Source of the DNA: Pontibacter sp. HSC-36F09
GTDB taxonomy: Bacteria > Bacteroidota > Bacteroidia > Cytophagales > Hymenobacteraceae
Direction: 5' to 3'
Assembly: GCF_024171605.1 (NCBI RefSeq)
Contig: NZ_JALKAA010000008.1
Span: forward strand, 1-64,000
DNA length: 64,000 nt
The notes under the pieces were generated by a model that did not search any database, was not told the origin of the DNA, and worked only from the letters and a program-made list of their open reading frames with translations. The position numbers were made by a program, and so were the translations under genes. Numbering within the stretch: position 1 is the stretch's first letter; each line of letters begins with the position of its first letter. Of this stretch, positions 1 through 63,137 are shown piece after piece.

Positions 1-466
1 TCCGTTTTACTTCCGTTTCCCCGCCCCGTTTGACCGGGTTGGGAGTGCAAAGGTCCACAAAATTTCCGAATCCGCAAGCACCCGGTGTTAAATTCAGCTG
101 GCGTCCCGGGGCAGTTCCCCCTAACTCACTGAAAAGCACCGGGAATCATTTTGAAAAAACTTTCGGGTTTTGTCGCTTCTTAGCAATACAGGCTATTTAA
201 ACCTCCATTGCTAAGAGCTTGTTTGCTTTCAGAGCTTTTAATTGCTCCAAAGTATAGGTTGTTTGGTCAGTTTCAGCATAAGGAGATTGCTTTTACAATC
301 TGTGGGATTCCCCTATGCTGTGCACCTCAGTTTCCCGTGCGCTAGATAGTAACAGCGTTTCCCCCTCTAATAGTTTCCTCATTAATTATTTTTTTCATTT
401 TTTATTTTTCTTCCTTATACCAGGTATAGCCTCACTCTTATGTCTGCCTCTCTTCTACAAAAGAAA
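1..466. other. gene-free left edge, rRNA-type leader and upstream region
   Basis: No convincing protein-coding or tRNA gene is visible here. The first 80 bases carry a minus-strand promoter listed separately; further right the region is AT-rich with T and A tracts (about 150-170 and 380-415), as is common upstream of strong rRNA promoters. One copy of the dispersed octamer lies at 422-429, just outside the terminator that closes the minus-strand tsaB/DUF2480 unit. Confidence 0.5.
48..77 (-). promoter_or_regulatory. probable rRNA-operon-type promoter firing leftward out of the window
   Basis: On the minus strand there is a TTG (77-75), a 19-base spacer, then GACCTTTG (55-48), one mismatch from the Bacteroidota -7 box TAnnTTTG. 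The sequence that follows, GCACTCCCAA then a G/C-rich leader, is the kind of start I know from Bacteroidota rRNA operons. The transcript would leave through base 1, so the gene itself is not visible. The promoter architecture is seen directly; the rRNA assignment is inference. Confidence 0.5.
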
Positions 467-491
467 AAGCCCTCTCTTTTAGAAAGGGCTT
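467..491 (-). terminator. intrinsic terminator of the DUF2480 unit
   Basis: AGCCCT (468-473) pairs with AGGGCT (485-490) and is followed on the minus strand by a T-rich run. It lies 27 bp past the stop of the 518-1030 gene. Confidence 0.7.
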
Positions 492-517
492 ATGTTCTAA
501 ATACTTCTGTTTCGCGT

Positions 518-1030
518 TTATGCTGATTTTGGCCTTTTATATAAAGGCACTGTGCTGCATGGCTCGCCGTACATCAGGCTACTCACTACTGGTGATAGTT
601 TTCGCATGATCTCTACATAAGCATAAGTAGGAACAGGTATACTGCCGCATCCTTTGATCACAACTTTACCATCCCGATATTCTTCCGGATCTATTTTGGC
701 AATCGCTTCCTGCATCAGCGCTTGTTCCAATGCTTCCAGATCGCCGAACACATAATAGTTAGCGTGCGCCTGCAGCTTTGTAGCCAGTAGCATATAAGCC
801 CAGGTCGGCACGATGGCATCAACAGAACAAATGATGGCGACATTTTTCCCGGCATAAGCCGACCAGTCGTGTTCTTTCACAAAAGCCCGGAAATCCTTCT
901 CGCGCAGAATCAGGCCCTGGAACAGATTGTCTTTTATATCATATACTACGCGCTCTCCCGGATGAAGCAACTCTTCCAGGTTTAGCGTCACGAGTGCGCT
1001 TTGCGCTACTTTGTTTATTATATCTGACAT
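518..1030 (-). CDS. DUF2480 family protein
   Basis: A 170-residue cytosolic protein of unknown function that I recognise as the DUF2480 family, found mainly in Bacteroidota. No signal peptide or membrane segment. The conserved parts are a central hydrophobic stretch (about residues 62-85, with PTWAYMLLATKL) and a C-terminal third containing KGCGSIPVPTYAY and GEPCSTVPLYKR, each with a single cysteine. The ATG start at 1030 lies only 9 bp after the tsaB stop, so the two are probably one transcript closed by the terminator at 467-491. In some relatives the family sits near iron-sulfur cluster (suf) genes; nothing here supports that link. Confidence 0.75.
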   Translation of the reverse strand: MSDIINKVAQSALVTLNLEELLHPGERVVYDIKDNLFQGLILREKDFRAFVKEHDWSAYAGKNVAIICSVDAIVPTWAYMLLATKLQAHANYYVFGDLEALEQALMQEAIAKIDPEEYRDGKVVIKGCGSIPVPTYAYVEIMRKLSPVVSSLMYGEPCSTVPLYKRPKSA

Positions 1031-1039
1031 TGTTATAGC

Positions 1040-1738
1040 TTATTTAATCGTGTTCTTACTCGGACTTGTTATATAAACATCCTTCAGGTAGAAGGGTTCA
1101 TAATAGGCCACATCTTCAAAAGCCTGCTGTTCGTACTTCACCAGCGCCAACTGCCCGATCGGTTTTGCGGATGGTTGTATACTATCTATAAACAACGCAT
1201 TCACACTTCCTTCCTGTAACTTTTTGAACTTAAAGGCACCATTGCCGAAGAAAATGATCGGTTGTTGGGCTAATTGTTCCTGAAAGCTTTGCTCATCTAA
1301 CACTATTGGCGTGACAGGCATTTGCTCTTCCAACCTGGAATTGAGCAGACAGGTATAGACTTCCATACGGCGGGCATCCATCATGGGGCAGAACAGGTAG
1401 TCCTGCGCATTGGGCACACCATCTATTGCTTGCTTCGCCAATCCATATAAAGTAGACACTTCCAGCAACGGAATATCGAGCGAATAACAAAGGCCTTTGG
1501 CGGTAGAGCTCCCGATCCGCAAACCCGTATAGGAACCGGGCCCTCCCGAAACAGCCACAGCACTCAGGTCATGCAAGTTATAGCCACAGTTCTCGACCAA
1601 TTGTGAGATCATGACTGTGATGTGGGATGAATGAGACTTTTCGATCTGCAGCTCGGATGCGCCCAATAAGTCCGCTCCTTTATATAAGGCAACAGAGCAT
1701 ACGTTAGACGAGGTTTCGAGCGCTAGCAGTAGTGGCAT
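1040..1738 (-). CDS. tsaB: tRNA threonylcarbamoyladenosine biosynthesis protein TsaB
   Basis: TsaB is the non-catalytic, ASKHA-fold partner that dimerises with TsaD in the complex making t6A37 on ANN-decoding tRNAs. The 232 residues have normal family length. The N-terminus LLALETSSNVCSVALYKG and the loop SGGPGSYTGLRIG (about 64-77) are the family signatures. It sits between an S41 protease gene and DUF2480, all on the minus strand, about 107 bp downstream of the protease stop with that gene's terminator in between. The octamer occurs once in the coding sequence (1351-1358). Confidence 0.93.
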   Translation of the reverse strand: MPLLLALETSSNVCSVALYKGADLLGASELQIEKSHSSHITVMISQLVENCGYNLHDLSAVAVSGGPGSYTGLRIGSSTAKGLCYSLDIPLLEVSTLYGLAKQAIDGVPNAQDYLFCPMMDARRMEVYTCLLNSRLEEQMPVTPIVLDEQSFQEQLAQQPIIFFGNGAFKFKKLQEGSVNALFIDSIQPSAKPIGQLALVKYEQQAFEDVAYYEPFYLKDVYITSPSKNTIK

Positions 1739-1796
1739 ACTTTATACTTATAATAAATGATATGACAAAAGTACGGCCGAAAGACCAAGAAACAAA

Positions 1797-1827
1797 AAAG
1801 GGTGACACCGGACCGGCACCACCCTTT
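1797..1827 (-). terminator. intrinsic terminator after the S41 protease gene
   Basis: AAAGGGTG (1797-1804) pairs with CACCCTTT (1820-1827); the minus strand continues with a T-rich run. It lies about 19 bp beyond the protease stop codon. Confidence 0.75.
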
Positions 1828-1845
1828 TGCTTATACCTTGTTTGC

Positions 1846-3495
1846 TTACTTCACTTTCAGGTATGATGCATATTCCTGTTGATTGCTGAGCACTCGCTTG
1901 GCCATCAGAATATCCGGATCGTCATCGAAAGAAGACTCGATGTAGCCTTTCTGCAAATAGTAGCGAGAAGCAATTTCCGCCTCGAGCATTTCCTGAATCT
2001 CGGCACGGAAGCGCGTCAGGTCATTCGACTTGTTATGCGATACCTTTTTCTTAATAGCATCCAGCTCCAGTTTAATGTCATCCAAGTGCTTTCCATCCTT
2101 TGCCTGCTCAGTCAGTTGTTCCAGTTCGCGCTCTACTTTAGTGGTGTAGTTCACATCTTTGTTATCCAGGAACGTGATGAACTTCTGGTAGTCGGCATCG
2201 GTCAGCTTAAACTGCTTGGCTGAAGGTATAGTCGGGTTCTCTGCTCTGTACTTATTGGCGTACTCAAAGAAGTATCCTTTAACTGCGATTGTCCTGGCAA
2301 TTTCAGAATAATCCTTTCGGGTAACTTCCACATCCGGGCTAACGCCACCGCCGTCATACACGATGCGGCCTCCGGCAGTTTTGTGGGCCACCTTTAACGA
2401 ATCCGGAATTTTGCCGGCGCTGCCGTCCTCGTTGCGATGCTGGTAATCAATGGCCTGTATGCTACGGCCGCTCGGGATATAATATTTAGCAGTTGTTACT
2501 TTCAATTGTGAGTTATAGGAAAGCGGACGTGTTGCCTGTACCAGGCCTTTGCCGAAAGTACGTTCCCCTACTAGTACCGCTCTGTCATAGTCCTGCATCA
2601 CACCGGCCACAATTTCAGAGGCCGAGGCACTGCGCGAACTGGTCAAGATCACCATCGGAACCTCCTTGTCCAGTGGTTCATCCAGCGCTTTGTAGGTTTT
2701 GTTCCACTCCTTTACTTTGCCCTTGGTACTTACAATGTCACTGCCCTTGTCAACAAACAGGTTGGAGATGTTCACAGCTTCGTGCAGCAAACCACCCGGA
2801 TTGTCGCGCAAATCGAAAATAATCTTCTTAGCCCCCTGCTCTTTCAACTTCTGAACAGCAGTTCTCACTTCTTTAGAAGCATCCACTGTAAAGCCTGACA
2901 GTTGGAAGTAACCGATTTCGTTATCGATCATGCCATAGTAAGGCACGTTGTCGACCATAATATTAGCGCGGGTGAGTTCTACTGTTCGTGATTTGTTTTG
3001 TCCGTAGCTGCGCACTTCAAGTTTTACGATAGAGTTAGCCTGCCCTTTCAGCAACTTGCTCACCTCGGAAGTAGTCTTACTGGAAACATTTACGCCATCT
3101 ATTTTCACGATCTCATCGCCTATTACCAAACCCGCCTTATGGGCCGGGGAGTTTTCATAGGGCATTTGTACCACAATCTTATTATCGCGGCTGCCAATGA
3201 GTGCGCCTATACCGCCATACTGACCGGTGGTCATGGTGCGGAAATCTTCAATATCGTCTTCGGGAATGTAGTTGGTATACGGGTCGAGCGACTTGAGCAT
3301 CGCGTCTATACCTGTGCGCACTAGTTTGGAGGGCGGCACTTCGTCTACATAATAGGTGTTTACTTCTTTGAAAAGCGTGGCAAAAACATCGAGGTTTTTA
3401 GCTATTTCGAAATAGCGCTCCGACTCTGACTTAAAAGAGAAGAGGGTCAGCGCTAAGCTGCCGGCGAGGATGCCAGCTAGTAACTTCTTGTACAT
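1846..3495 (-). CDS. S41 family carboxyl-terminal processing protease (CtpA-like)
   Basis: A periplasmic serine protease of the tail-specific (Tsp/CtpA) type, which cleaves near the C-termini of exported proteins. Residues 1-24 form a signal or anchor segment (MYKKLLAGILAGSLALTLFS). A PDZ domain spans about 85-165 (GGIGALIG, AGLVIGDEIVKIDGVNV). The catalytic serine is in SSRSASASEIVAG (about 287-299) and the lysine in ERTFGKGLVQ (about 316), the expected Ser-Lys dyad. About 150 residues follow the protease core, as is common in Bacteroidota. The gene lies downstream of rnpA on the same strand, 29 bp away, so co-transcription from rpmH is possible. Two copies of the octamer are in the coding region. 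Confidence 0.9.
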   Translation of the reverse strand: MYKKLLAGILAGSLALTLFSFKSESERYFEIAKNLDVFATLFKEVNTYYVDEVPPSKLVRTGIDAMLKSLDPYTNYIPEDDIEDFRTMTTGQYGGIGALIGSRDNKIVVQMPYENSPAHKAGLVIGDEIVKIDGVNVSSKTTSEVSKLLKGQANSIVKLEVRSYGQNKSRTVELTRANIMVDNVPYYGMIDNEIGYFQLSGFTVDASKEVRTAVQKLKEQGAKKIIFDLRDNPGGLLHEAVNISNLFVDKGSDIVSTKGKVKEWNKTYKALDEPLDKEVPMVILTSSRSASASEIVAGVMQDYDRAVLVGERTFGKGLVQATRPLSYNSQLKVTTAKYYIPSGRSIQAIDYQHRNEDGSAGKIPDSLKVAHKTAGGRIVYDGGGVSPDVEVTRKDYSEIARTIAVKGYFFEYANKYRAENPTIPSAKQFKLTDADYQKFITFLDNKDVNYTTKVERELEQLTEQAKDGKHLDDIKLELDAIKKKVSHNKSNDLTRFRAEIQEMLEAEIASRYYLQKGYIESSFDDDPDILMAKRVLSNQQEYASYLKVK

Positions 3496-3524
3496 AGAAT
3501 TTCAGGTTTAGGGGCGGGGTAAGA

Positions 3525-3929
3525 CTATCTAGTCAAACAACGTTCCAAACCGGAAATTAGTTTTTTTTGGATTGTATCAAAGGATTTTTTTTCCTTGCCG
3601 ATGTAAATAATGGCAAGGAGGCTGGGTGCCTGCCCCTGATGTTGGGTAAGAAAGTGCTTGTTAAGGCGGTAAGCCTCACGTATCTGGCGCTTCAGGCGGT
3701 TCCGGTCGACGGCACGCTTAAAGTTGCGCTTCGAAACGGAAATAACCAACTGCGTTCCTTCGGAAAGAGGAGCTTCAGGTGTGTGGTATACAAACCTGAG
3801 CGGATACAAATTAAAAGAAGAACCCTTGCTAAACAGCAGCGAGATGAGTCGCTTACTGCACAAGCGTTCTTCTTTCGAATATGTATAAGAAATCGGTTGC
3901 TCTGCTGGCTTGTTGTTAGCTGGATCCAT
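3525..3929 (-). CDS. rnpA: ribonuclease P protein component
   Basis: The small basic protein subunit of RNase P, which helps the catalytic RNA mature tRNA 5' ends. From the ATG at 3929 it has 134 residues, slightly long because of a Bacteroidota-type N-terminal extension. The core has YSKEERLCSKRLISLLFSKG (about 17-36) and the RNR signature RAVDRNRLKRQIREAYR (about 73-89). The frame is open further upstream to a GTG at 3962, but the ATG at 3929 gives a normal family N-terminus. It follows rpmH by 41 bp in the classic rpmH-rnpA order. Confidence 0.92.
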   Translation of the reverse strand: MDPANNKPAEQPISYTYSKEERLCSKRLISLLFSKGSSFNLYPLRFVYHTPEAPLSEGTQLVISVSKRNFKRAVDRNRLKRQIREAYRLNKHFLTQHQGQAPSLLAIIYIGKEKKSFDTIQKKLISGLERCLTR

Positions 3930-3970
3930 ACGCGTGACGGCTCCGGGCTGAGCAAAGCACAACCAGATTA

Positions 3971-4129
3971 CTAAGCTTTGTGTCTTCTTTCGTCAGAAAC
4001 AGAAAGTCTCTTTCTGCCTTTAGCTCTTCTGCTAGCTAATACTCTTCTTCCGTTAGCGGTTTCCATTCTTGATCTGAAACCGTGCTTATTTCTTCTTTTT
4101 CTCTGCGAAGGCTGGAATGTTCTTTTCAT
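3971..4129 (-). CDS. rpmH: 50S ribosomal protein L34
   Basis: A 52-residue, highly basic protein read on the minus strand. It starts [18 protein letters not shown] and continues with the diagnostic [20 protein letters not shown], which identifies bL34; the C-terminus has a short extension (DERRHKA). Its stop lies 41 bp upstream of the rnpA start. A textbook Bacteroidota promoter sits 29-60 bp upstream of the ATG. A 50S subunit protein gene next to rnpA is the universal arrangement. Confidence 0.97.
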
Positions 4130-4157
4130 CGGATGCCAATGGTTTTATTATGGCCTG

Positions 4158-4188
4158 CAAAATTAGGGAAGCTTTTCTAAAATAGCAA
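4158..4188 (-). promoter_or_regulatory. promoter of rpmH-rnpA
   Basis: On the minus strand: TTG at 4188-4186, a 20-base spacer, then TAATTTTG at 4165-4158, a perfect match to the Bacteroidota -7 box TAnnTTTG. Transcription would begin about 4150, giving a leader of about 20 bases before the rpmH ATG. Confidence 0.75.
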
Positions 4189-4264
4189 TCCTACTTCTCA
4201 TATTATTTCAAAAAATACAGAAAAAATCGGCTGCACACCCCTTTATACTACTTCTAACGCGTAG

Positions 4265-4755
4265 CTATACCTTGAGTTGGGCCTTATCTGAGGGCTCTAT
4301 ACCTGGGTTAAACGCAGATTATCTTAATTTTACACCAAACGCTATACCTTCCCGCAACTATGATCCGACACCACCTCTCCTACGCCAATCCGCTGACGCA
4401 CTTCCTGGATATCACCATCACTATACCTGACAACAGACAACAGGAGCTATACCTGCAACTGCCTGCCTGGCGACCGGGCCGCTACGAATTGCAGCATTTT
4501 GCCCAGAAGCTACGCGGTGTTACGGCTAGCGCCAACGGGGCGGCTATACCTGTTCGCAAGGTAACCAAAGACCGTTGGATCGTAGAGACTGGTGACGCGG
4601 AAAATATCGAGGTTCGCTACAGCTTTTATGCCCGGCAGATGGATGGCGGCGGCTCCTGGCTGGATGAAGAACATCTATACCTGAACGGCATCAACTGCCT
4701 GATGGCGGTGGAGGACCGCACGCACGAACCGCAGCAACTGCAGCTCGCTATACCT
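4265..4755 (+). repeat. dense same-orientation cluster of the CTATACCT octamer
   Basis: Eight exact copies begin at 4265, 4297, 4342, 4421, 4447, 4544, 4675 and 4748, all reading CTATACCT on the plus strand. The first three are in the M61 gene's upstream region and the rest are inside its first 400 bp, read as I-P, L-Y-L or A-I-P. A related TATACCT copy follows near 4890. This is the densest cluster in the window. Confidence 0.85.
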
Positions 4756-6084
4756 GACAACTGGCAGATCGCCTGCGGACTGCCTGAAATTGAACACCAT
4801 ACCTTGCTGGCTGATAACTATGATCTGTTGGTAGACTCCCCTTTGATTGCCAGCGCCTCACTCAAAAAAGAGACTTATACCGTAGCTGGTATACCTTTCC
4901 ACATATGGCTGCAGGGCGATTGCCGGCCGGATTGGGAGCGGATCAAAAAAGACTTTGAAGCTTTCACAAAGGAGCAGCTGGAGGTGTTTGGCGACTTTCC
5001 GGTGCAGGACTACCATTACCTGAACGAGATTCTCCCCTATCGCTTTTATCATGGGGTAGAGCACGTCAACTCCACTGTCATCACACTTGGTCCGGGCGAA
5101 TTGCTGATGACACCCGCTCTGTATAAGGAGTTTCTGGGTGTGAGCTCGCATGAGCTTTTCCACACGTGGAACGTCAAGCAGATACGCCCAAAGGAAATTT
5201 TGCCCTACGATTTTACTGGTGAGAATTATTTCCGGACAGGCTATGTGGCGGAAGGTATAACGACTTACTACGGCGACTACATGCTGGCCCGCTCGGGTGT
5301 GTTCACGGCGTCGCAGTATTTTGACGAGCTCAACACAACGTTGCAACGCTACTTTGCAGACCACAGCCGCTACCACATGTCTGTCGCCGACTCGTCGTTC
5401 GACCTCTGGCTCGATGGCTACAAAACCGGTATACCTGATCGCAAAGTGTCTATTTACATTAAAGGAGCCCTGACTGCCCTACTACTCGACCTGCAACTGC
5501 GCCGTGTTACCAGCAATCAGGAAAGCCTGGATACGGTGATGCGACACCTTTGGGAAGATTTTGGGAAGCGCGGCATTGGGTATACCGAAGATGATTACAA
5601 GCAATTGGTGCTCCGTGTCGGCGGCGTTGAGTTTGAGGGTTATTTTGACAGGTATATCAACGGTACTGCTCCGATCGAAAATGCTTTGGATGAGGCGCTT
5701 GCTTATGTGGGTTGTACCCTGCAAGCAGATGAAAATGCTCTGCTTTATGAGAGGCTCTTCGGATTTAAGGTAGTCGCTGATGCGCAAGCGACTAAAGTAA
5801 CCGCTATCGCTCCTGACTCGCCTGCCAGTGCTGTATTAAGTATAGACGACGAGTTGATGGCAGTGAATGGGCGAAAGATTGAACAGAACCTGCAAGCTTT
5901 ATTAGCGGACACAGATCTCACACAAGGTATAGCACTGGCGCTATTCAGAAACAAGCAACTGCGTCAGGTCAGGCTGGAGCCAAGCCAGCATACCTACTAC
6001 ACCAGGTATAGCATTACCAAAAGAAAGGAAGCGACGGATACCGAGAAGCAAAACTTCAGGCTGTGGCTGAAGCAGGAGTTTTAG
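4360..6084 (+). CDS. M61 family metallopeptidase with PDZ domain
   Basis: A glycyl-aminopeptidase-type (M61) zinc peptidase of 574 residues. The zinc site is SSHELFHTWN (H264, E265, H268) with the downstream glutamate in YVAEGITTYYGDYM (about E298). An N-terminal beta domain (1-170) precedes the catalytic domain, and a PDZ domain lies at about 465-545 (DSPASAVLSIDDELMAVNG). No signal peptide is visible at the ATG used, so location is uncertain; many relatives are exported. The 3' end overlaps the stop of the convergent FAD-reductase gene by 4 bp. The 5' end is embedded in the densest cluster of the dispersed octamer. Confidence 0.9.
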   Translation: MIRHHLSYANPLTHFLDITITIPDNRQQELYLQLPAWRPGRYELQHFAQKLRGVTASANGAAIPVRKVTKDRWIVETGDAENIEVRYSFYARQMDGGGSWLDEEHLYLNGINCLMAVEDRTHEPQQLQLAIPDNWQIACGLPEIEHHTLLADNYDLLVDSPLIASASLKKETYTVAGIPFHIWLQGDCRPDWERIKKDFEAFTKEQLEVFGDFPVQDYHYLNEILPYRFYHGVEHVNSTVITLGPGELLMTPALYKEFLGVSSHELFHTWNVKQIRPKEILPYDFTGENYFRTGYVAEGITTYYGDYMLARSGVFTASQYFDELNTTLQRYFADHSRYHMSVADSSFDLWLDGYKTGIPDRKVSIYIKGALTALLLDLQLRRVTSNQESLDTVMRHLWEDFGKRGIGYTEDDYKQLVLRVGGVEFEGYFDRYINGTAPIENALDEALAYVGCTLQADENALLYERLFGFKVVADAQATKVTAIAPDSPASAVLSIDDELMAVNGRKIEQNLQALLADTDLTQGIALALFRNKQLRQVRLEPSQHTYYTRYSITKRKEATDTEKQNFRLWLKQEF

Positions 6085-7316
6085 TTGAATAGCAGTTTGA
6101 GATAGAATGACGGCTGCTTGAGTCGCTCGCGCAGATCGAGGTCGGTGAACATACAGGAGATCGTTTCGGCGAGGGCTTGATTTTTTGATGCTTTGCTCGC
6201 TACTTGGTTAAATAGCCATGGGTAGTCCAGCAACTGCTGCATTCGGCGGCTAAGCTTGAGTTCTTTCCAGAGTCGGTTGTACACAGCTTTGTCGTAGCCT
6301 TGCATGAAGCCGGCGGAGAAGTTCTGCTGTTGCAGGCACAGCTCGGCCTGCGTAGCGGCCCAGCGACCGCTGATCATGGCATTGCTGATTCCTTCTCCTG
6401 TAAAAGGGTCGATCAAGGAGGCGGCGTCACCCACCAGCATGTAGTTGTCGCCGGAGATCACGCGTTTTTTGGAGCCCAGCGGCAGGCCATACCCTTTGAT
6501 GTCACTCATCAGTTCTGCTGCTGCAAAGCGCTGTTTGAATTCTGGGTGCGTCTCGATGATGCGGAGCATTTCCTTCTTCAGGTTGATCTTTTTTTGGCTC
6601 ACCGTCTCGCTCAGCATCCCTACACCCACGTTGGCATAACCGCCCGGTAGTGGAAAGATCCAGAAATAACCCGGCAGAAAATCTTTGAGAAAGTGCAGTT
6701 CAATAAAATTATCTTTATCAAGGCCCGCCACATTTTTGTAGTACGCCCTGAGGCCGGCGCAGTAGTGCTCAGGTTCCTGCTTTATACCTGCCTCGTGCCG
6801 TGCAAAGGCAGAATGTGCCCCATTGGCCGCAATCAGAAGGCAGGTGCTAAACTGGTGTTCGCCGCTTTTGTCGGTCAGTGAGAACCCCTGCTCGTTCCTC
6901 TCCACTTTCGAAATGTCTATACCTTCCAGTAAAGTGATCTCGGGCCGCTTCTTCACCTGCTCGATCAGGAAGTTGTCGAAGTCAATCCGTTTGGAGATGT
7001 AGCCGGAAGGAACGTCTTCTGCAGCTTTGTAATCAGGCTTGAAAGGGACGCTGAGTTTGTGACCGGCCGGCGAGATGAAATGAATTCCCCAAGATGGCAA
7101 CTGCTCTTCCTGCTGACTTAACAAGGCGGGCAAATCCGGAGAAATGCGTTTCAGTTCGTTGACTACTTTGCCGCTCAGGGCATCGCCGCATACCTTGTCT
7201 CTGGGAAAAACGGCCTTATCAAGCAGCACACAAGAGATGCCCTTGTTGGCCAGGTGCAAAGCTGCCGAGGCACCGCCCGGCCCGGCGCCGAGTATACAAA
7301 TGTCGTGTTGCTGCAT
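6081..7316 (-). CDS. geranylgeranyl-reductase-family FAD-dependent oxidoreductase
   Basis: A 411-residue flavoprotein. The N-terminal Rossmann motif ICILGAGPGGASAALHLANK (about 5-24) binds FAD, and GDAASLIDPFTGEGISNAM (about 277-295) is the second FAD-contact motif of the family. Relatives reduce prenyl chains or hydroxylate aromatic and lipid substrates; the substrate here cannot be read from sequence. The frame continues upstream to a TTG at 7355, but the ATG at 7316 starts directly before the Rossmann strand (MQQHDICILG) and is preferred. The stop codon overlaps the stop of the convergent M61 gene. Confidence 0.85.
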   Translation of the reverse strand: MQQHDICILGAGPGGASAALHLANKGISCVLLDKAVFPRDKVCGDALSGKVVNELKRISPDLPALLSQQEEQLPSWGIHFISPAGHKLSVPFKPDYKAAEDVPSGYISKRIDFDNFLIEQVKKRPEITLLEGIDISKVERNEQGFSLTDKSGEHQFSTCLLIAANGAHSAFARHEAGIKQEPEHYCAGLRAYYKNVAGLDKDNFIELHFLKDFLPGYFWIFPLPGGYANVGVGMLSETVSQKKINLKKEMLRIIETHPEFKQRFAAAELMSDIKGYGLPLGSKKRVISGDNYMLVGDAASLIDPFTGEGISNAMISGRWAATQAELCLQQQNFSAGFMQGYDKAVYNRLWKELKLSRRMQQLLDYPWLFNQVASKASKNQALAETISCMFTDLDLRERLKQPSFYLKLLFN

Positions 7317-7399
7317 AAAAACCTTCTGCTGAAAGAAGCTAAAAATAAACAGCAAAAACGAGTCTGTTGCTATACCTGCCGCAAAAGGACATAAAAAAA

Positions 7400-7419
7400 G
7401 GAAAGCCCTTGGGCCTTCC
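7400..7419 (-). terminator. intrinsic terminator of the 66-residue protein gene
   Basis: GGAAAGCCC (7400-7408) pairs, with one mismatch, with GGGCCTTCC (7411-7419); on the minus strand a run of seven T follows. It lies about 100 bp downstream of the 7521-7721 stop, beyond the decayed second copy of its 3' end. Confidence 0.6.
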
Positions 7420-7462
7420 TCTCATTATTTCATAGTCTTATTTTGCATTCCTGACGCACTCA

Positions 7463-7520
7463 CTAATAGTAAGGGGTGCTTTCGCTACCTTTCGCCAGGT
7501 TAGATTGAATTACCGTATGG
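7463..7520 (-). pseudogene. decayed duplicate of the 3' end of the neighbouring small gene
   Basis: Immediately past the stop of the 66-residue gene, a different minus-strand frame reads SNLAKGSESTPYY-stop, closely resembling that gene's own end NSNRNLAKGGNNTPYDKK. It has no start of its own. This looks like a partial tandem duplication of the last 15-20 codons. The similarity is seen directly; the duplication history is inference. Confidence 0.4.
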
Positions 7521-7721
7521 CTATTTCTTGTCGTAAGGCGTGTTGTTACCGCCTTTTGCCAGGTTTCGGTTTGAGTTTTGCACTTTGGTATCGTCTGCGT
7601 TCAACGCATTCTGGTTCGGCTGAGAATCAATATTACCCATTGGCTTGTTCGGATCTTTACCTTCAGGGTTATTCTTCTTCAGCTCGTCCAGTGTTTTTTT
7701 ATTTTCGTTTTTCAAGCTCAT
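7521..7721 (-). CDS. small hydrophilic protein of unknown function
   Basis: A 66-residue protein rich in Asn, Lys and Asp (MSLKNENKKTLDELKK at the start, then NPEGKDPNKPMG and NIDSQPNQNALNADD). It has no membrane segment, no cysteine and little predicted order; it looks intrinsically disordered. I do not recognise a family. Its own terminator and an ATG with normal spacing argue that it is real. A degenerate copy of its C-terminal codons follows the stop codon. Confidence 0.5.
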   Translation of the reverse strand: MSLKNENKKTLDELKKNNPEGKDPNKPMGNIDSQPNQNALNADDTKVQNSNRNLAKGGNNTPYDKK

Positions 7722-7825
7722 TTTCGTCAGTTTTAAGGTAATCTATACTTAAGTCTTACCTGTTATACCTGTACTTTGTTACAATTTAGTGCAAATCAGG
7801 TCACTGGTTATACCTTCCATAAAAC

Positions 7826-7855
7826 AAAAAAGGGAAGCTTTCGCCTCCCTTTTTT
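7826..7855 (-). terminator. intrinsic terminator of the PfkB gene
   Basis: AAAAAAGGGA (7826-7835) pairs with TCCCTTTTTT (7846-7855). It lies about 23 bp past the stop at 7878 and works on the minus strand; the symmetric A/T tails would allow use in both directions. Confidence 0.75.
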
Positions 7856-7877
7856 GGAATATATAAAACCCTTATAC

Positions 7878-8801
7878 TTAAGACAATACTGTGTCAAAAG
7901 CCACCAGGTTCACAAACTGCTGCACGCGGCTGTCGATTTCCTGCTGATCTAATTTCTTCAGTCTTTCAGTGCCAAATTTTTCTACGCAGAACGATGCCAT
8001 GGCTGAACCGTGGATGATCGCACGCTTCATATTCTCGAAACTGATGTCGCCTGTGGCGGCAATGTAGCCGATGAAACCACCTGCAAACGTGTCGCCGGCG
8101 CCGGTTGGGTCGAACACTTCCTCGAGCGGCAGGGCTGGCGCAAAGAATACTTTTTCTTCGTGGAACAACAGGGCGCCGTGTTCTCCTTTTTTGATGATCA
8201 GGAATTTCGGTCCCATCGCCATGATTTTGCGGGCAGCTTTTACCAAAGAATACTCGCCGCTCAGCTGGCGCGCTTCTTCGTCGTTGATCGACAGCACGTC
8301 TACCATACCGATAGTTTTCTGAAGCTCTTCCATGGCATTGTCCATCCAGAAGTTCATGGTGTCCATCACGATCAGCTTCGGACGGTTGGTGAGGCGCTCC
8401 AGTACCGTGCGCTGTACCTGTGGCGCCAGGTTGCCCAGCATTAGGTACTCGCAGTTCTGGTAGCTCTCAGGTATAATCGGATCGAAATCACCCAGCACGT
8501 TTAGTTCAGTTACGAGCGTTTCGCGGCTGTTCATGTCGTTGAAGTAGCGGCCAGACCAGAAGAAAGACCTCTCGTTCTCCTTTACCTGCACGCCTTCGGT
8601 GCTGATGTTGCGCTGGTGCATCAGGCTGATGTGGTCCTGATCAAAATCTCCACCTACTACCGATACCACATTCACGGGCTTCACAAAATAAGAAGCCGAC
8701 AGTGAAATATAAGTGGCAGCACCGCCCACGATCTTGTCTGTTTTTCCGAAAGGAGTTTCCAGCGCGTCAAACGCCATCGAACCTACTACTACTAAGCTCA
8801 T
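7878..8801 (-). CDS. PfkB family carbohydrate (ribokinase-type) kinase
   Basis: A 307-residue sugar or nucleoside kinase. N-terminal glycine motif IVGGAATYISLSASY (about 24-38) and the C-terminal PfkB signature DPTGAGDTFAGGF (about 232-244), in which the aspartate of GAGD is the catalytic base and the glycines form the anion hole. The substrate is not evident; similar Bacteroidota proteins are annotated as ribokinase or adenosine-kinase-like. ATG at 8801. It is a single-gene unit on the minus strand between tRNA-His and a small orphan gene, with its own terminator. Confidence 0.85.
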   Translation of the reverse strand: MSLVVVGSMAFDALETPFGKTDKIVGGAATYISLSASYFVKPVNVVSVVGGDFDQDHISLMHQRNISTEGVQVKENERSFFWSGRYFNDMNSRETLVTELNVLGDFDPIIPESYQNCEYLMLGNLAPQVQRTVLERLTNRPKLIVMDTMNFWMDNAMEELQKTIGMVDVLSINDEEARQLSGEYSLVKAARKIMAMGPKFLIIKKGEHGALLFHEEKVFFAPALPLEEVFDPTGAGDTFAGGFIGYIAATGDISFENMKRAIIHGSAMASFCVEKFGTERLKKLDQQEIDSRVQQFVNLVAFDTVLS

Positions 8802-14356: not shown

Positions 14357-14358
14357 GT

Positions 14359-21371: not shown

Positions 21372-21506
21372 GGTATAAGGTATAGGTATAATTTGCTGGC
21401 GAGAAATGGCAGCCGCGGAGGGGCACCACAACCCGTAGCGCCATTCAGGCTGGTGAGCGTTTAGTGTTTGCTACGCAGGTATAGCTTTGTAGCCGGAACA
21501 CTTAGA

Positions 21507-21812
21507 TACTCCCACCCTTCTCGAGAGGGGAATAACCTCCCCTAGCCCCTCCTTTTGTAAAAGGCCTCTACCCCCAAAACAGGAAAGGAGTTTTGCTGTC
21601 GCTGCCAGTTCTAAGGTATAGGAATTGTAACTACGGCTTCGTGTGCACGATTAACATCCCCCTGCCCCCTTCGAAGGGGGAGTTTTCAGTTAAAGCCATC
21701 TCCTAGGTATAGCTTCATAGGGCCTTTCTTATATCAAGATAACTGATTGTATCCTCCCCTACCCCCTTTACCCCATCCCAACCTTCCCCTAAAAACAGGG
21801 GAAGGAGTCTAC
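21507..21812. repeat. three C-rich palindromic elements
   Basis: Related C-rich blocks occur at about 21507-21590 (ACCTCCCCTAGCCCCTCCTT), 21656-21682 (CCCCCTTCGAAGGGGGA, a perfect palindrome) and 21751-21812 (CCTTCCCCT, AAAAAC loop, AGGGGAAGG). They share the CCCCTnnCCCC core and form G/C-rich hairpins. This is the appearance of small extragenic palindromic repeats; whether they recur elsewhere cannot be tested here. Confidence 0.55.
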
Positions 21813-21939
21813 CACTACAGAATTCAAAGTTATAAGCACTGTAATTTAAATTCCTATCATGAGCCCCTGACAGGTATAGCAAGACTAACTTGCCCCAGAA
21901 GCGATGAAACAGAAAGCATTAGCCAAGTGCACTTTTTGG

Positions 21940-22326: not shown

Positions 22327-23865
22327 ATGCTTATCAAAACGTTTGGCAGCGCCGTGCAGGGCGTGAACGCCTATACCGTGACCGTGGAAGTGAGTGTGAG
22401 CGCCGGCGCGAAGTACTTTCTGGTGGGCTTGCCCGACAACGCCATTAAAGAAGGCGAGCAGCGTATAGAATCAGCACTGGCGCAGTATGGCTACAAGCTC
22501 AAGCGCCAGAAAACCATCATCAACATGGCCCCTGCCGACATCCGCAAAGAAGGCGCTGCTTACGACCTCACCATTGCGATGGGTATGCTGGCTGCCGGCG
22601 GACAAATGGCTGCTGATAAGCTTTCGCAATACATGATCATGGGGGAGCTTTCACTTGATGGCTCGCTTCGTCCGATTAAAGGGGTGCTTCCTATTGCCAT
22701 TCAGGCCCGCAAGGAAGGATTCAGAGGTATCATACTGCCCGCCAGCAATGCCCGAGAAGCGGCTATCGTGAATAACCTGGACGTGATCGGGGTGGAGAAT
22801 ATCAAGGAAGCGATCGACTTCCTGAACGGTGAGCTTGACATTCAACCTGTAAAAATAGACACCCGTGATGTGTTTCAGAACACGGCCAACCAGTATGCTG
22901 CCGACTTCTCGGATGTGCAGGGGCAGGAGAATATCAAGCGGGCTTTGGAGATTGCTGCAGCCGGTGGCCATAATGTGATCATGATCGGACCTCCGGGCGC
23001 GGGTAAAACCATGCTGGCCAAACGACTGCCATCTATACTCCCTCCGCTTTCGATGCACGAAGCCCTGGAAACAACCAAAATACATTCGGTGGCTGGCAAA
23101 CTGGGCGAGGTTTCGTCGCTGCTTGCTACGCGGCCATACAGGTCGCCGCACCATACCATCTCGGATGTGGCGCTGGTGGGCGGTGGCGGTATACCACAGC
23201 CCGGCGAAATATCGCTGGCCCACAATGGCGTGCTATTTTTGGACGAACTCCCGGAATTTAAGCGCACTGCACTGGAGGTAATGCGTCAGCCACTCGAAGA
23301 ACGCCGCGTGACCATTTCGAGAGCAAAAACCACCCTGGATTTCCCGGCAAACTTTATGCTTATAGCGAGTATGAACCCGTGCCCCTGTGGATTTTATAAC
23401 CACCCTGATAAAGAGTGTGTATGCGCACCCGGCCTGGTGCAGCGCTACCTCAACAAAGTAAGCGGCCCCCTCCTCGACCGCATCGACCTGCACGTAGAAG
23501 TAACACCTGTTACATTTGATGAAATGACAGCTACCCGTAAGTCAGAAGACAGTGAGACCATACGCGAACGTGTGGTGCGGGCGCGTGAGTTACAGCGGGA
23601 ACGTTTCAACGAATTCGAGGACATCCACTCCAACGCCATGATGCCCTCGCAAATGGTGAAGGAACTCTGTCAGATCTCAGATGCCGGGCGCACTTTGCTG
23701 AAGACTGCCATGGAGCGTCTTGGACTCTCGGCCCGTGCCTACGATCGCATCCTGAAAGTAAGCCGCACCATTGCTGACCTAGCCGGTAGCGGCGAAATCA
23801 AAATTGAACATTTAGCAGAAGCTATTCAGTACCGCAGCCTGGATAGAGACGGCTGGGCAGGCTAA
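22327..23865 (+). CDS. comM: YifB/ComM family Mg-chelatase-like AAA ATPase
   Basis: A 512-residue protein of full family length. The N-terminal ChlI (Lon-protease-like) domain (about 20-145) is followed by an AAA+ Mg-chelatase domain with Walker A MIGPPGAGKTMLAKR (about 218-232) and Walker B GVLFLDELPEF, then a C-terminal Mg-chelatase subunit domain. In Vibrio ComM is a hexameric helicase that speeds branch migration during integration of transforming DNA; the protein is common also in bacteria not known to be competent. No octamer copy falls in this gene. It has its own terminator and stands alone. Confidence 0.92.
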   Translation: MLIKTFGSAVQGVNAYTVTVEVSVSAGAKYFLVGLPDNAIKEGEQRIESALAQYGYKLKRQKTIINMAPADIRKEGAAYDLTIAMGMLAAGGQMAADKLSQYMIMGELSLDGSLRPIKGVLPIAIQARKEGFRGIILPASNAREAAIVNNLDVIGVENIKEAIDFLNGELDIQPVKIDTRDVFQNTANQYAADFSDVQGQENIKRALEIAAAGGHNVIMIGPPGAGKTMLAKRLPSILPPLSMHEALETTKIHSVAGKLGEVSSLLATRPYRSPHHTISDVALVGGGGIPQPGEISLAHNGVLFLDELPEFKRTALEVMRQPLEERRVTISRAKTTLDFPANFMLIASMNPCPCGFYNHPDKECVCAPGLVQRYLNKVSGPLLDRIDLHVEVTPVTFDEMTATRKSEDSETIRERVVRARELQRERFNEFEDIHSNAMMPSQMVKELCQISDAGRTLLKTAMERLGLSARAYDRILKVSRTIADLAGSGEIKIEHLAEAIQYRSLDRDGWAG

Positions 23866-44455: not shown

Positions 44456-44598
44456 CTATACCTGCCTAAACAAAGGCTGTGCCAAAAACTCAATCGCAAC
44501 TTGCACAGCTTCGTAAGCAACTGTTTTGCAAGAGCATGAGTCAAAACAGAGCAGGGGGCAATTTGAAAGCATGCTATACCTGAGCCGTCACTATACCT
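44456..44598 (+). repeat. three same-orientation octamers in the divergent intergenic region
   Basis: CTATACCT at 44456, 44574 and 44591. The last two are 17 bp apart. They lie between two divergent genes for exported proteins (44386 and 44678) with no other feature nearby. Confidence 0.75.
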
Positions 44599-47509: not shown

Positions 47510-48187
47510 ATGCAATTCAAAAAACTAGCATTCCTGCTGCTCTTTTTGGGCTTCTCATCCACTGCCATGGCCCAAATGGAAATCGGCATCCAGTTCTCCC
47601 CTACTATTGCCGGCACACGTTTTATAGCTGAAGACAGACATGGCTTCGAAAAAAGCAGCAATACATTGCGTGTAGGTGTAGGCGTAATTGGCGATTATTT
47701 TTTCTCCAACAACTATGCTTTCAGCTCTGGACTAATGTACCGCAGCAAGGGCTCTAAAATTAAGTACAACTTTACGTCAGAAAGCCCCGATGGCACGCCA
47801 ACGACTATTCAGGCAGAAGACGACCTGACGGTGCAGTATCTGGAAATCCCGGTGACGTTAAAGCTTTTCACCAACGAAGTAGCTCCTGATGTAGTGCTAT
47901 ATTTCCAAGTAGGCGGATCGCTGGGCACGAAGGTATCAGGGCAGGTGAACAATCAGAAAGTGATCAATGGCGAAAAGACGGCAAAGCGTTTCAATGTTTT
48001 TGAGACCAGCGCCATACTGGGTACGGGTGCCGAAATGCAGCTTGGGCAAAGCACTAAGCTGTTTGGTGGAGTCACTTACCTGCGCGGCTTGAGCAACATC
48101 GATAATTTCTACAGTGACCGCCTGGGCGACAAGAATATCGCGCTTAAAAACAACGGTGTGTCTATTGATGTGGGTATCAAATTCTAA
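47510..48187 (+). CDS. PorT-type outer-membrane beta-barrel protein
   Basis: 225 residues, signal peptide MQFKKLAFLLLFLGFSSTAM followed by AQ. Barrel strands include IGIQFSPTIAGTRFI, YAFSSGLMYRSKGSK, TVQYLEIPVTLKLFT and FGGVTYLRGLSNI, ending GVSIDVGIKF, the usual terminal aromatic. The family is the same as the three barrels at 24-26.5 kb, but it is separate in location and more distant. It is divergent from gldB (67 bp apart); role unknown. Confidence 0.82.
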   Translation: MQFKKLAFLLLFLGFSSTAMAQMEIGIQFSPTIAGTRFIAEDRHGFEKSSNTLRVGVGVIGDYFFSNNYAFSSGLMYRSKGSKIKYNFTSESPDGTPTTIQAEDDLTVQYLEIPVTLKLFTNEVAPDVVLYFQVGGSLGTKVSGQVNNQKVINGEKTAKRFNVFETSAILGTGAEMQLGQSTKLFGGVTYLRGLSNIDNFYSDRLGDKNIALKNNGVSIDVGIKF

Positions 48188-48200
48188 GGTATAGGTATAG
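48187..48200 (+). repeat. two overlapping octamers just after a stop codon
   Basis: AGGTATAGGTATAG contains two copies of AGGTATAG offset by six bases (48187 and 48193), directly behind the TAA stop of the barrel gene. Confidence 0.8.
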
Positions 48201-55875: not shown

Positions 55876-55921
55876 GCTTATTTTTGTCAGGTATACCTGC
55901 TATACCTTATTTACCTAACCT

Positions 55922-58030: not shown

Positions 58031-58044
58031 AAATTTCTATCTTT

Positions 58045-58222
58045 ACAACGTTTGGAGGCACCTCGGCCAGGTATAGCTGAGGTTTAAAAAGGAACCGTGT
58101 GAAAATCACGGGCTGACGCGCAACTGTAAATAACACCCAATTGGCTGCCTCAAATTATCCATTGTCCGGAAGAGGATGAGAAGGATGGCAGCCAGGTTAT
58201 AAGCCAGGAGACTTGCCCCAAA
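58045..58222 (+). promoter_or_regulatory. cobalamin (B12) riboswitch aptamer
   Basis: Conserved cobalamin-aptamer elements appear in order: CACGGGCTGACGCGCAACTG (58107-58125) with its pairing partner GGAACCGTGTGAAAA just before it, paired arms GGCTGCC (58143) and GGCAGCC (58187), and the B12 box AGCCAGGAGACTTGCC (58202-58217). A copy of the dispersed octamer (58069-58076) lies in the loop of the hairpin CCTC...GAGG at 58061-58082, a peripheral arm. TATCTTTA near 58038 may be the -7 box. No B12-related gene follows within 250 bp; see findings. Confidence 0.9.
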
Positions 58223-58272
58223 TAACTTTACGCATGCTTTCGCGCCTAAAGCCTGTGGTCTGAGAAATTACG

Positions 58273-58306
58273 CGACTCCTAAAGCCATCCTGGCTTAAAA
58301 GAGTCG
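58273..58306 (+). promoter_or_regulatory. hairpin downstream of the riboswitch, candidate expression platform
   Basis: CGACTC (58273-58278) pairs with GAGTCG (58301-58306), and AAGCC (58282-58286) with GGCTT (58292-58296). Its apical part GCCATCCT (58284-58291) is the exact complement of AGGATGGC (58182-58189) inside the aptamer, so the two could be mutually exclusive. The run after it is pyrimidine-rich (CCTTTCCTTT) but not a clean T tract. Confidence 0.5.
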
Positions 58307-58340
58307 TAGCCTTTCCTTTCCGCCATTCTACAGCGCCAGC

Positions 58341-58466
58341 ATGCAAAGCCACACGACTATGCTGGATACTTGCATCATCTTATCTATACCTTCTTTCCGG
58401 GCTACAATCCTTGCAGCGGTCAGCAGTGCATACGTATACCTTATCTTTAAAATTATACTTTTATGA
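58341..58466 (+). CDS. 41-codon hydrophobic ORF overlapping the thioesterase start
   Basis: MQSHTTMLDTCIILSIPSFR then ATILAAVSSAYVYLIFKIILL: about 25 hydrophobic residues at the C-terminus would form a membrane segment. Its stop TGA overlaps the thioesterase ATG (ATGA). The position behind the riboswitch and this overlap are what makes it worth listing; it may be chance. Confidence 0.25.
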   Translation: MQSHTTMLDTCIILSIPSFRATILAAVSSAYVYLIFKIILL

Positions 58467-58864
58467 ATTTACAAGAACGCATTGCCCAATCGGAGACTCG
58501 CATATTCAAGGCCGTTTTTCCGAACACTACCAACCACTACGACACCCTGTTTGGCGGCACAGCCATGCAACTGATGGATGAAGTGGCTTTTATCACCGCT
58601 ACCCGCTTTTGCCGCAAACGAGTGGTCACTGTTTCGTCAGACAGAATAGATTTTACCCAGCCTATACCTGCGGGCACCATTATCGAACTGATCGGGCAGG
58701 TAAAGCGCGTAGGCAACACCAGCCTGAAGGTGGAAGTGGAAATCTACATTGAAGAGATGTACTCTGACGTGCGGCTAAAGGCCATCCACGGCAGTTTTAC
58801 ATTTGTCGCCATTGACGAGAAGAAACAACCAGTGTCTGTATTGGAAAGTGAACTTCAGCGTTAA
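58463..58864 (+). CDS. acyl-CoA thioesterase, YciA/BACH hot-dog type
   Basis: 133 residues of a hot-dog-fold thioesterase that hydrolyses acyl-CoA. The core reads LFGGTAMQLMDEVAFITATR (about 30-49, with the catalytic Asp) and DRIDFTQPIPAGTIIELIGQ (about 65-84). Length and motif match YciA. It stands behind a cobalamin riboswitch with no other gene between except a doubtful 41-codon ORF. Whether the riboswitch truly regulates it is unknown. Confidence 0.9.
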   Translation: MNLQERIAQSETRIFKAVFPNTTNHYDTLFGGTAMQLMDEVAFITATRFCRKRVVTVSSDRIDFTQPIPAGTIIELIGQVKRVGNTSLKVEVEIYIEEMYSDVRLKAIHGSFTFVAIDEKKQPVSVLESELQR

Positions 58865-59099
58865 GGCAGGCTATACCTGTTTTTAGCTAATTTGCGTTAA
58901 AGGTTTTGTTTGTGCTGGTTCCACGAGAAACAATTTTATCCTATATTCGACCCGTCTATACCTGACGCAGAACATTTTGCTCACTGAAATTTCTAAAACT
59001 TATACCTTGAAAACACTTCATTTTTTGCCGCTTCTATTGCTGATGGCCTTATTGTCTGCCACAACAGCCGCTGCTCAGGGCAAGAAAGCTGCTATACCT
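58662..59099 (+). repeat. cluster of four octamers around the thioesterase / exported protein boundary
   Basis: CTATACCT at 58662 (end of the thioesterase gene, I-P-A), 58871, 58956 and 59092, with a TTATACCTTG variant at 59000-59009 that contains the likely TTG start of the next gene. All have the same orientation. Confidence 0.75.
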
Positions 59100-61199: not shown

Positions 61200-61287
61200 A
61201 TGCTCTGATTATATTTATGCTTCGGTATTCGGGTATGTTTACGCACGATTAATCATTAAGTCACCAGAAGGTAACCCAATTAAACAA

Positions 61288-61316
61288 AAAGGCTGCCCCC
61301 TACGGAGACAGCCTTT
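61288..61316 (-). terminator. intrinsic terminator of the acyl-CoA dehydrogenase unit
   Basis: AAAGGCTG (61288-61295) pairs with CAGCCTTT (61309-61316). On the minus strand a T run follows (T at 61287-61283). It lies 25 bp past the stop of the 61341-63137 gene. Confidence 0.8.
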
Positions 61317-61340
61317 CTTAAACTATAGATTTGTCAGAAT

Positions 61341-63137
61341 CTAATACACAAATTCGTTTGCCTCTATCATAGAAGCTGCAATGCGGCGGCGGGCTTCTTT
61401 GGTGTTGTAGAGGTCTTTCTTGGTGAAGCGCTTCAGGCCCATGAACAACAGGCGCTGCTCGTCGCCCTCCACCATAGAGGCAATAGCGTCTTTACCGGCC
61501 AGGAAGGCAGTATCCACGGCATCGTTCACAGTTACGCGCACAATGTCGATCTGATTGGCCACGGCATCCTCACCTTTCATACCTACCAGTTTCTCCACGC
61601 GCAGCAGCGTTGACTCCGCCACATAAGTCTTGATAGCCATGTCGGCAATGTTCATCAAAATCTCCTGCTCCTTGGCCAGCGAGTTCATGTACTTCTGCAC
61701 CGCTGTACCTGCTACCATCAGAATCGCTTTCTTCAGGTTACGGATCGCTTTGTGCTCTGCAGCAAACAGACCTTCTTCTTCCTCACCGAAATCAGGTATA
61801 GCCATCAGTTCATTTTGCACATTTTGCGCAGGTCCCATCAAATCTAACTCGCCGTTCATAGCCTTTTTCAGGATCATGTCTACGGTGAGCATGCGGTTGA
61901 TCTCGTTGGTGCCCTCAAAGATGCGGTTGATGCGTGAATCGCGGTAGGCACGGTCCATTGGGTAGTCGGCCGAAAAGCCGTAGCCACCGTAGATCTGCAC
62001 GCCTTCGTCCACCACGTAGTCCAGTACTTCAGAACCTTCCACTTTCAGGATGGCACACTCCACGGCAAATTCGCGGGCTGCGCCCAGCATGGCTTCGTTC
62101 TCGCCTTTGCCGGCAGCCAACAACTCCTGCTCTTTGCGATAGATGTCCATACCGCATCGGTACAAGGCCGACTCCACAGCATAGATGCGGATAGCCTGCT
62201 CTGCCAGTTTGTAGCGTATAGCACCAAATTTCGAGATTGGCAGTTTGAACTGCTGGCGCTCGTTGGCATACTTTACCGACAGGTCTGCCACTTTTTTAGC
62301 GGCACCCAAGGTAGCAGCGCAAAGCTTGATACGACCAATGTTCAGGATGTTGAAGGCAATCAGGTGACCTTTGCCGATCTCGCCCAATACGTTCTCTTTC
62401 GGCACTTCGCAGTCCGACAGGAACACCTGACGCGTAGAAGAACCTTTGATACCCATCTTGTGCTCCTCGTTGCCAAGGCTCAGTCCCGGGTAGTTTTTCT
62501 CTACAATGAAGCCTGTGAACTTGTCGCCGTCTACCTGCGCGAACACAATGAACACATCGGCGAAGCCAGCGTTTGTGATCCACATTTTCTGACCGTTCAG
62601 GATATAATGCGTACCGGCTTCGTTCAATACGGCTTTGGTTTTGGCTGCCAGGGCATCAGAACCAGAACCTGGCTCAGTGAGGCAGTAAGCTGCCGCCCAT
62701 TCGCCGGAAGTCAATTTCGGCAGATAATTCGCTTTCTGCTCATCTGTACCAAAGTACAGGATCGGCAGCATACCTATACCTGTGTGTGCCGCAAAAGCCA
62801 CCGGGAAAGAGTGTCCACCTCCTACTGATTCTGTTACCAGCAGCGAAGTGTTAAAGTCCATGTTCAGACCACCGTATTGCTCCGGCATGGATACAGCAAA
62901 CAGTCCAAGCTCTCCAGCCTTTTTCATCAGGCCTTCCATCAGACCTTCTTCGTGGTTGTCGAGGCGCTCGAGCAGCGGGTTCACTTCTTCGCGCACAAAG
63001 TCCAGGCAGGTCTGCGCCATCATGCGCTGCTCCTCGCTGAACTCAGCAGGTATAAACACGTCCTGCGGATTCGTTTCTTTGATCAAAAATTCACCACCGC
63101 GAACAGTGGCCTTCTTGTTATCTGTTACATTTTCCAT
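61341..63137 (-). CDS. acyl-CoA dehydrogenase (long, Bacteroidota type)
   Basis: 598 residues of a FAD-dependent acyl-CoA dehydrogenase, first oxidative step of beta-oxidation. Blocks: EEQRMMAQTCLDFVREEVNP, YCLTEPGSGSDALAAKTKA (flavin loop, about 155-173), NGQKMWITNAGFADVF and DEGVQIYGGYGFSADYPMDR then RINRIFEGTNEINR. The C-terminal 150 residues are an extension seen in long members. It lies 35 bp downstream of the thiolase gene on the same strand; the two form a fatty-acid oxidation unit. Confidence 0.93.
   Translation of the reverse strand: MENVTDNKKATVRGGEFLIKETNPQDVFIPAEFSEEQRMMAQTCLDFVREEVNPLLERLDNHEEGLMEGLMKKAGELGLFAVSMPEQYGGLNMDFNTSLLVTESVGGGHSFPVAFAAHTGIGMLPILYFGTDEQKANYLPKLTSGEWAAAYCLTEPGSGSDALAAKTKAVLNEAGTHYILNGQKMWITNAGFADVFIVFAQVDGDKFTGFIVEKNYPGLSLGNEEHKMGIKGSSTRQVFLSDCEVPKENVLGEIGKGHLIAFNILNIGRIKLCAATLGAAKKVADLSVKYANERQQFKLPISKFGAIRYKLAEQAIRIYAVESALYRCGMDIYRKEQELLAAGKGENEAMLGAAREFAVECAILKVEGSEVLDYVVDEGVQIYGGYGFSADYPMDRAYRDSRINRIFEGTNEINRMLTVDMILKKAMNGELDLMGPAQNVQNELMAIPDFGEEEEGLFAAEHKAIRNLKKAILMVAGTAVQKYMNSLAKEQEILMNIADMAIKTYVAESTLLRVEKLVGMKGEDAVANQIDIVRVTVNDAVDTAFLAGKDAIASMVEGDEQRLLFMGLKRFTKKDLYNTKEARRRIAASMIEANEFVY

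Follow-up and report, generated by a model that had tools for sequence, protein, structure and literature searches.

To our knowledge, the known families of DNA-uptake sequences are those of the Neisseriaceae and the Pasteurellaceae, both of which are tied to type IV pili. The DNA uptake sequences (DUS) of the Neisseriaceae occur as dialects that follow phylogeny while an inner core, CTG, is kept; some members of the family have no DUS, and Simonsiella muelleri carries two dialects at once (PMC3630211). The uptake signal sequences (USS) of the Pasteurellaceae occur as two dialects with a common inner core, and their receptor is predicted to be a type IV minor pilin (PMC12616744). The highly iterated palindrome 1 (HIP1) of cyanobacteria is a palindrome of one sequence associated with orphan methyltransferases (PMC4390886). 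Riemerella transforms without detectable pilus genes and uses ComEC, DprA, ComF and RecA together with four proteins of other kinds (PMC8459023), and R. columbina prefers its own DNA, the words listed for Riemerella and Flavobacterium being A+T-rich only (PMC7965970). Here we analyse a stretch of 64,000 nucleotides from Pontibacter sp. HSC-36F09 (contig NZ_JALKAA010000008.1, positions 1 to 64,000; referred to as the window), in which the octamer CTATACCT, read on the opposite strand as AGGTATAG, recurs on both strands, and we suggest that this octamer is probably a self-recognition DNA-uptake sequence with a receptor that is not a pilus.

The window (GC 0.500) contains 91 exact copies of CTATACCT, 59 on the plus strand and 32 on the minus strand, and 31 copies of the decamer GCTATACCTG (19 and 12 by strand). 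Both totals agree exactly with a first-pass annotation of the same DNA, which had raised the possibility of an uptake-like or a HIP1-like genome signature. The core, AGGTATA, occurs 151 times. According to gene calls from a custom hexamer-based script, the limits of which are approximate, 53 of the 91 octamers lie wholly inside genes, 36 wholly outside and two in neither class; the annotation had placed about 38 in noncoding DNA. The excess extends over the whole genome (4.43 Mb), where AGGTATAG was counted 5222 times and the word read backwards 102 times, and GCTATACCTG 1452 times and its reversed control 8 times. In 464 kb of this genome 592 copies of AGGTATAG were observed, where Markov models of order 1, 2 and 3 predict 8.5, 16.1 and 43.6 respectively, and at order 3 no other 8-mer has as high a value of observed/(expected+1), so the suspected over-representation held against such models. 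Codon use, which the annotation had named as a possible source of the counts, does not explain them: AGGTATA was seen 673 times in 375 called genes versus 63.9 +/- 7.5 over 100 rounds of synonymous shuffling, the octamer 341 times versus 17.4 and the decamer 96 times versus 2.3.

The unit can be written approximately as 5'-(C/A/T)AGGTATAG(C)-3'. Position -1 favours C and avoids G, position +7 favours G and avoids T, and position +8 favours C; outside about -1 to +8 the positions are near random (<=0.04 bit), and no conserved sequence of the repetitive extragenic palindromic or miniature inverted-repeat transposable element type is present at the sites beyond these limits. As the outer positions carry almost no information, the word is not part of a longer repeat. 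Its placement is uneven. AGGTATA occurs at 1.8 per kb in genes and at 3.9-4.5 per kb between them, the octamer at 0.9-1.0 and 2.7-3.0 per kb, which agrees with the higher intergenic density claimed from the window; by type of gap, AGGTATA reaches 6.4 per kb in convergent, 4.5 in tandem and 2.1 in divergent gaps.

The dialects are the new result on this word. Whole-genome counts, set against the word read backwards, assigned 12 of 50 Pontibacter genomes to AGGTATAG (the AGG dialect), 21 to AAGTATAA (AAG; one weakly), five to AACTATAG (AAC) and two to a mixture of AAGTATAA and AACTATAG, leaving two with weak variants and eight with no clear word. Copies of AGGTATAG number 2823-5222 in its 12 genomes and at most 833 in the other genomes of the genus. 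AAGTATAA is present in 2246-7030 copies in 20 genomes that have no second clear word, and in 1201 copies in G007, while AACTATAG reaches 6288-8208 in G017, G030, G060, G065 and G066. The two genomes with both dialects, G026 and G032, hold 3911 and 4476 copies of AAGTATAA beside 2617 and 2002 of AACTATAG, which also occurs 907 times in G071. The weak variants, GGTATAA in G036 and a TATATA type in G069, are known from 60 and 40 kb of sampled sequence. AAGTATAA stands at 2.0-3.7 times the reversed control in five nested genomes without a clear word (G002, G023, G024, G033 and G064) and at 1.3-1.6 times in the other three (G025, G027 and G068). The residual excess in the nested five could be decay, or may reflect composition, since G000, which has the AGG dialect, shows a 2.7-fold excess of AAGTATAA too. 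The eight genomes are large (5.2-6.5 Mb), most of the word-bearing ones having 3.8-5.5 Mb.

Comparison with related genera, to which the first-pass annotation had pointed, shows that AAGTATAA, the dialect counted there, never exceeds 2.4 times the control in 100 genomes from five other genera of the family, and the decamer has 0-35 copies in each of 22 genomes from other genera in the order. In a first sweep only nine of 37 genomes, the source genome included, were rich in the decamer, and samples of 20-kb stretches showed that others spell the word differently; among 80 loci, of which those longer than 8 kb were scanned, the Pontibacter locus alone was rich in words. A tree of nine concatenated proteins (LG+G4, quick search) was built for 46 of the 50 genomes and Rufibacter, on which, as a long branch, it was rooted; 10 forks are open, and G001, G012, G019 and G031 are absent (less than a quarter of the columns; comM broken by inserts, short stretches). 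Dialect labels on the tree come from 20-80 kb samples, and G065, labelled AAC, also carries 2125 copies of AAGTATAA. All 12 AGG genomes fall into one clade and the five AAC and two mixed genomes into a second, each with a value of 100 in the Shimodaira-Hasegawa-like approximate likelihood ratio test, and the AAG dialect is scattered over the rest of the tree as if it were ancestral. The labels require 10 changes versus a mean of 26.2 when shuffled. The dialects track phylogeny, and the inner core TATA is retained.

Individual sites are conserved as well. Among 11 AGG genomes (G009 was excluded because its locus is short), AGGTATA sites were exactly kept in 2203 of 3558 ordered comparisons versus 11022 of 42126 for permuted 7-mers, and the corresponding fractions were 0.58 versus 0.30 and 0.57 versus 0.33 in two AAG groups and 0.55 versus 0.30 in the AAC group, all of these being pairwise comparisons that share ancestry and are not independent. 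Control comparisons with wordless genomes were too few to weigh (4/7, 0/4 and 4/8 kept). Third codon positions inside sites were retained more often than those outside in four of the five relatives compared (P = 1.6e-5 to 2.4e-4); in the fifth and most distant, G003, the difference was not significant (0.63 versus 0.54, P = 0.15). Where the exact word had not been kept, 616 of 1355 comparisons differed at a single position, so point changes account for the gain and loss of many sites. Two word-poor stretches are mobile islands. Sample L024 of G028, chosen because it is word-poor, contains a relaxase, metal-efflux genes, AbiEii and an MmeI-type restriction gene, and has a single AGGTATA versus 42, 25 and 37 in three other samples of that genome; sample L207 of G030, chosen in the same way, contains a type I restriction system and a transposase, and has four copies of AACTATA versus a median near 62 over 20 samples. 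A third word-poor choice, L200, has 13 copies and is a less clear case.

Abundance, the lack of a clear strand bias, tolerant placement, turnover by point change combined with conservation, and dialects make uptake sequences a better match for this word than HIP1, Chi, the site of an architectural protein or a terminator. The likeness, which is close in the case of the Neisseriaceae dialects, lies above all in clade-wise dialects with a kept core. Set beside the DUS, the Pontibacter word is likewise short, asymmetric and present in thousands of copies, its dialects follow phylogeny around a kept core (TATA instead of CTG), and there are both two-dialect genomes and wordless relatives. It differs from the DUS, which have the pilin ComP as receptor, in its sequence, in its phylum and in that no type IV pilin was found; moreover, its dialects lie within one genus, and the word is lost or missing in several nested lineages. 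Abundance and dialects sharing an inner core are also features of the USS. However, the flanks of the USS are extended whereas the information in the Pontibacter word ends within about 10 bp, and the pilin receptor predicted there has no counterpart found here. As in Riemerella, ComEC, DprA and helix-hairpin-helix proteins are present and no pilus genes were found, although Pontibacter has no consistent counterpart of the Riemerella surface protein with DUF5689 (22 of 50 genomes), and only A+T-rich words are given for Riemerella and Flavobacterium (PMC7965970). Since Riemerella transforms without detectable pilus genes and R. columbina prefers its own DNA, a self-preferring uptake system that lacks a pilus is plausible in the Bacteroidota.

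We propose that an envelope DNA-binding receptor of competent Pontibacter would prefer 5'-AGGTATAG-3' or the dialect of its own clade. Repeated transformation by tagged fragments could then copy the tag into the genome and retain it there, mostly where it is cheap, that is, between genes and at synonymous codon positions. If the specificity of the receptor drifted, the genome would gradually shift to another dialect but keep the TATA core, and if the uptake system were lost, the tags would decay. The genome-wide excess, the dialects on the tree, the conservation and placement of sites and the poverty of some mobile islands are observed; uptake, a receptor and a drive or selection maintaining the tag are inferred. 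Since no type IV pilin has turned up, one would have to postulate a receptor of a different kind, which might resemble the machinery without a pilus that genetic work has identified in Riemerella. Whether Pontibacter independently evolved an uptake-sequence system of three or more dialects, read by a non-pilin receptor in the envelope, in a phylum whose import of DNA across the outer membrane is unexplained, we regard as evenly poised. If it did, the word would represent a separate instance of self-DNA recognition, in Bacteroidota that have no detectable pilin, and the unsolved outer-membrane step of transformation in this phylum would become directly testable; the 40 genomes with a clear word, two with a weak one and eight without form a natural series in which to search for the receptor. 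Even if the function were another, a genome-wide word that is respelled between clades of one genus calls for an explanation.

Several results weigh against an uptake sequence, the main ones being that neither a pilin nor a receptor was found. Profile searches for type IV pilins (N_methyl) gave matches in none of the 50 genomes of the genus and in eight of 14 control genomes. ComEC, DprA and HHH_3 are found in all 50, the wordless included, and were rejected as genes that track the word; DUF5689, taken from the Riemerella screen, was rejected too, as its 22 genomes do not match the distribution of the word. Among the gene families tested in the 50 genomes no receptor candidate tracks the word. 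The uptake-like signature proposed in the first-pass annotation is upheld by the genome-wide excess beyond Markov expectation and codon use, the higher density between genes, site conservation and the dialects, but not by the machinery. Noncoding positions inside sites showed no significant extra retention in any of the five relatives. Site-by-site conversion between dialects was dropped as support: AAGTATA stands at AGG sites in 246 of 1635 comparisons with AAG species versus 8 of 630 with wordless species when counted by species pairs, and in 6 of 30 versus 2 of 29, a weak difference, when counted by distinct site. L024 and L207 were selected for their poverty in the word. In four inserts within comM, which were not picked in this way, AAGTATA occurs at 0.10, 0.34, 0.59 and 0.96 per kb versus 1.25, 0.75, 1.15 and 0.85 in one sample from each of the same genomes, so that three are poorer in the word and one is not. 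Finally, no report of transformation in Pontibacter was found in the open-licence literature among the matches listed. The same literature, within the same limit, yielded no report of such a word in this group, in keeping with the annotation, to whose knowledge none had been described.

One alternative is that a conserved, possibly orphan, methyltransferase or other DNA-modifying enzyme acts on the word, the modified sites serving repair, replication or recombination and the dialects following shifts in enzyme specificity. This is the best placed of the alternatives, yet unlikely. Some methyltransferase types can have asymmetric targets; restriction-modification targets, however, tend to be avoided rather than enriched. 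The word does resemble HIP1 in being an octamer that is dense throughout the genome and shared by much of a group (PMC4390886). The HIP1-like signature suggested by the annotation fits less well, because HIP1 is a single palindrome with associated methyltransferases and has an identical sequence in every case described (PMC4390886), whereas the Pontibacter word is asymmetric, as the annotation had recognized, and changes between branches of one genus. The graded preferences at -1, +7 and +8 are also more like a protein-binding profile.

Such graded flanks would suit a second and more doubtful explanation, that the word is bound by an abundant protein, architectural or regulatory, which acts in nucleoid organization, segregation or transcription. 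Non-random placement between genes and overdispersed counts of AGGTATA per 5 kb (mean 11.1, variance 22.4) are consistent with this. However, the word is sparsest in divergent gaps, where promoters lie, it is present in thousands of copies, and a single genus has replaced its spelling completely. A transcriptional use as a terminator is unlikely, as a T run is adjacent to 9 of the 48 inverted word pairs within 40 bp found in 400 kb (19% versus about 11% at random places). Still less probable, in our view, is a Chi-like hotspot, at which a helicase-nuclease of the RecBCD kind would read the single-stranded word and start recombination, the dialects following changes in the enzyme. Chi is an asymmetric octamer abundant in the genome, as is the Pontibacter word with its thousands of copies. 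Against this, there is no clear replication-strand bias: AGGTATA is split 440 versus 448 over 400 kb of contig C1, all 20 bins of which have negative GC skew, and in 20 samples of the one-contig genome G030 about 598 copies of AACTATA lie on the G-rich strand versus about 544 on the other. The preference for convergent over divergent gaps, the fast change between clades and the several nested lineages without the word also argue against a Chi-like role. That the word has no function and reflects mutational or repair bias (for example, repair of the very-short-patch type) or a spreading small repeat is very improbable, since, although point changes often create or destroy the word, each of the seven core positions is constrained (decamers with one mismatch inside AGGTATA number 0-15 versus 175), which a single biased substitution cannot produce, and flanks with no shared sequence show that no longer repeat is moving.

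Octamers in the window form several clusters, which are listed in Table 1 with the other features located. Same-strand steps of 6 bp between copies of AGGTATA were found 27 times in 400 kb of contig C1 (spacing table). The window also contains a gene that we take to be comM; as all 50 genomes of the genus have a comM-like gene, it adds nothing to the argument, and the annotation had rightly treated it as weak evidence.

Table 1. Positions of the word, of the comM-like gene and of related features (in the window unless a genome and contig are given)
Feature	Sequence	Position	Strand	Basis or remark
Span of 91 CTATACCT/AGGTATAG octamers	window	422..62781	both	exact counts and positions; first octamer at 422, last at 62774-62781
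Densest cluster, 8 CTATACCT within 491 bp	window	4265..4755	+	octamer positions
Cluster, 5 CTATACCT	window	21378..21879	-	octamer positions
comM-like gene	window	22327..23865	+	Pfam Mg_chelatase, ChlI, Mg_chelatase_C; context only
Cluster, 3 CTATACCT	window	44456..44598	+	octamer positions
Two overlapping octamers, 6-bp step	window	48187..48200	-	octamer positions
Cluster, 5 CTATACCT	window	58384..59099	+	octamer positions
comM insert	G001:C1	~1458902-1469041		
comM insert	G019:C1	~3475364-3487111		
comM insert	G012:C11	~61756-71900		
Two comM inserts, gene in three pieces	G031:C2	from ~22614		
Repeat array (L255)	G019:C1	1943501-1948500		

The inserts that split comM in four genomes of the genus (loci L162-L165) are about 10-17 kb long, as if the gene were an integration hotspot; comM is reportedly also an island site in Acinetobacter. 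In G009 and G021 the matches to comM, comEC and dprA all contain stops or are split, which is probably a matter of assembly quality rather than real loss. T2SSE matches occur in all 50 genomes and are short, spanning roughly positions 117-176 of the profile within frames some 650 residues long, three of them barely above the cut-off. The HHH_3 proteins of G000 include L257 (750 amino acids), which presumably resembles the RNA-binding protein Tex, and L256 (319 amino acids), which looks ComEA-like by eye; among the open reading frames scanned in the comEC neighbourhood of the same genome (L250) nothing was suggestive. Ten of the DUF5689 matches are in frames of 1099-1299 residues, in ten of the 50 genomes, four of the eight wordless ones among them, and twelve are in frames of 413-450 residues, one of which, in the single neighbourhood opened (L251 of G011), lies near a TonB-dependent receptor. 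Two of the long proteins were scanned (L249 and L252, on G024:C36 and G007:C79); both are secreted nuclease-like proteins of 1.27-1.28 kilo-residues with LTD, DUF5689 and Exo_endo_phos domains and a T9SS tail. In G019, which has the AAG dialect, AGGTATAG is unevenly divided between the strands (209 versus 130) because of a repeat array, a family of 41-nt repeats with 66 copies spaced at 64-69 bp, in which a common 30-nt unit contains AGGTATAG and the sequence between units varies, as in a CRISPR array.

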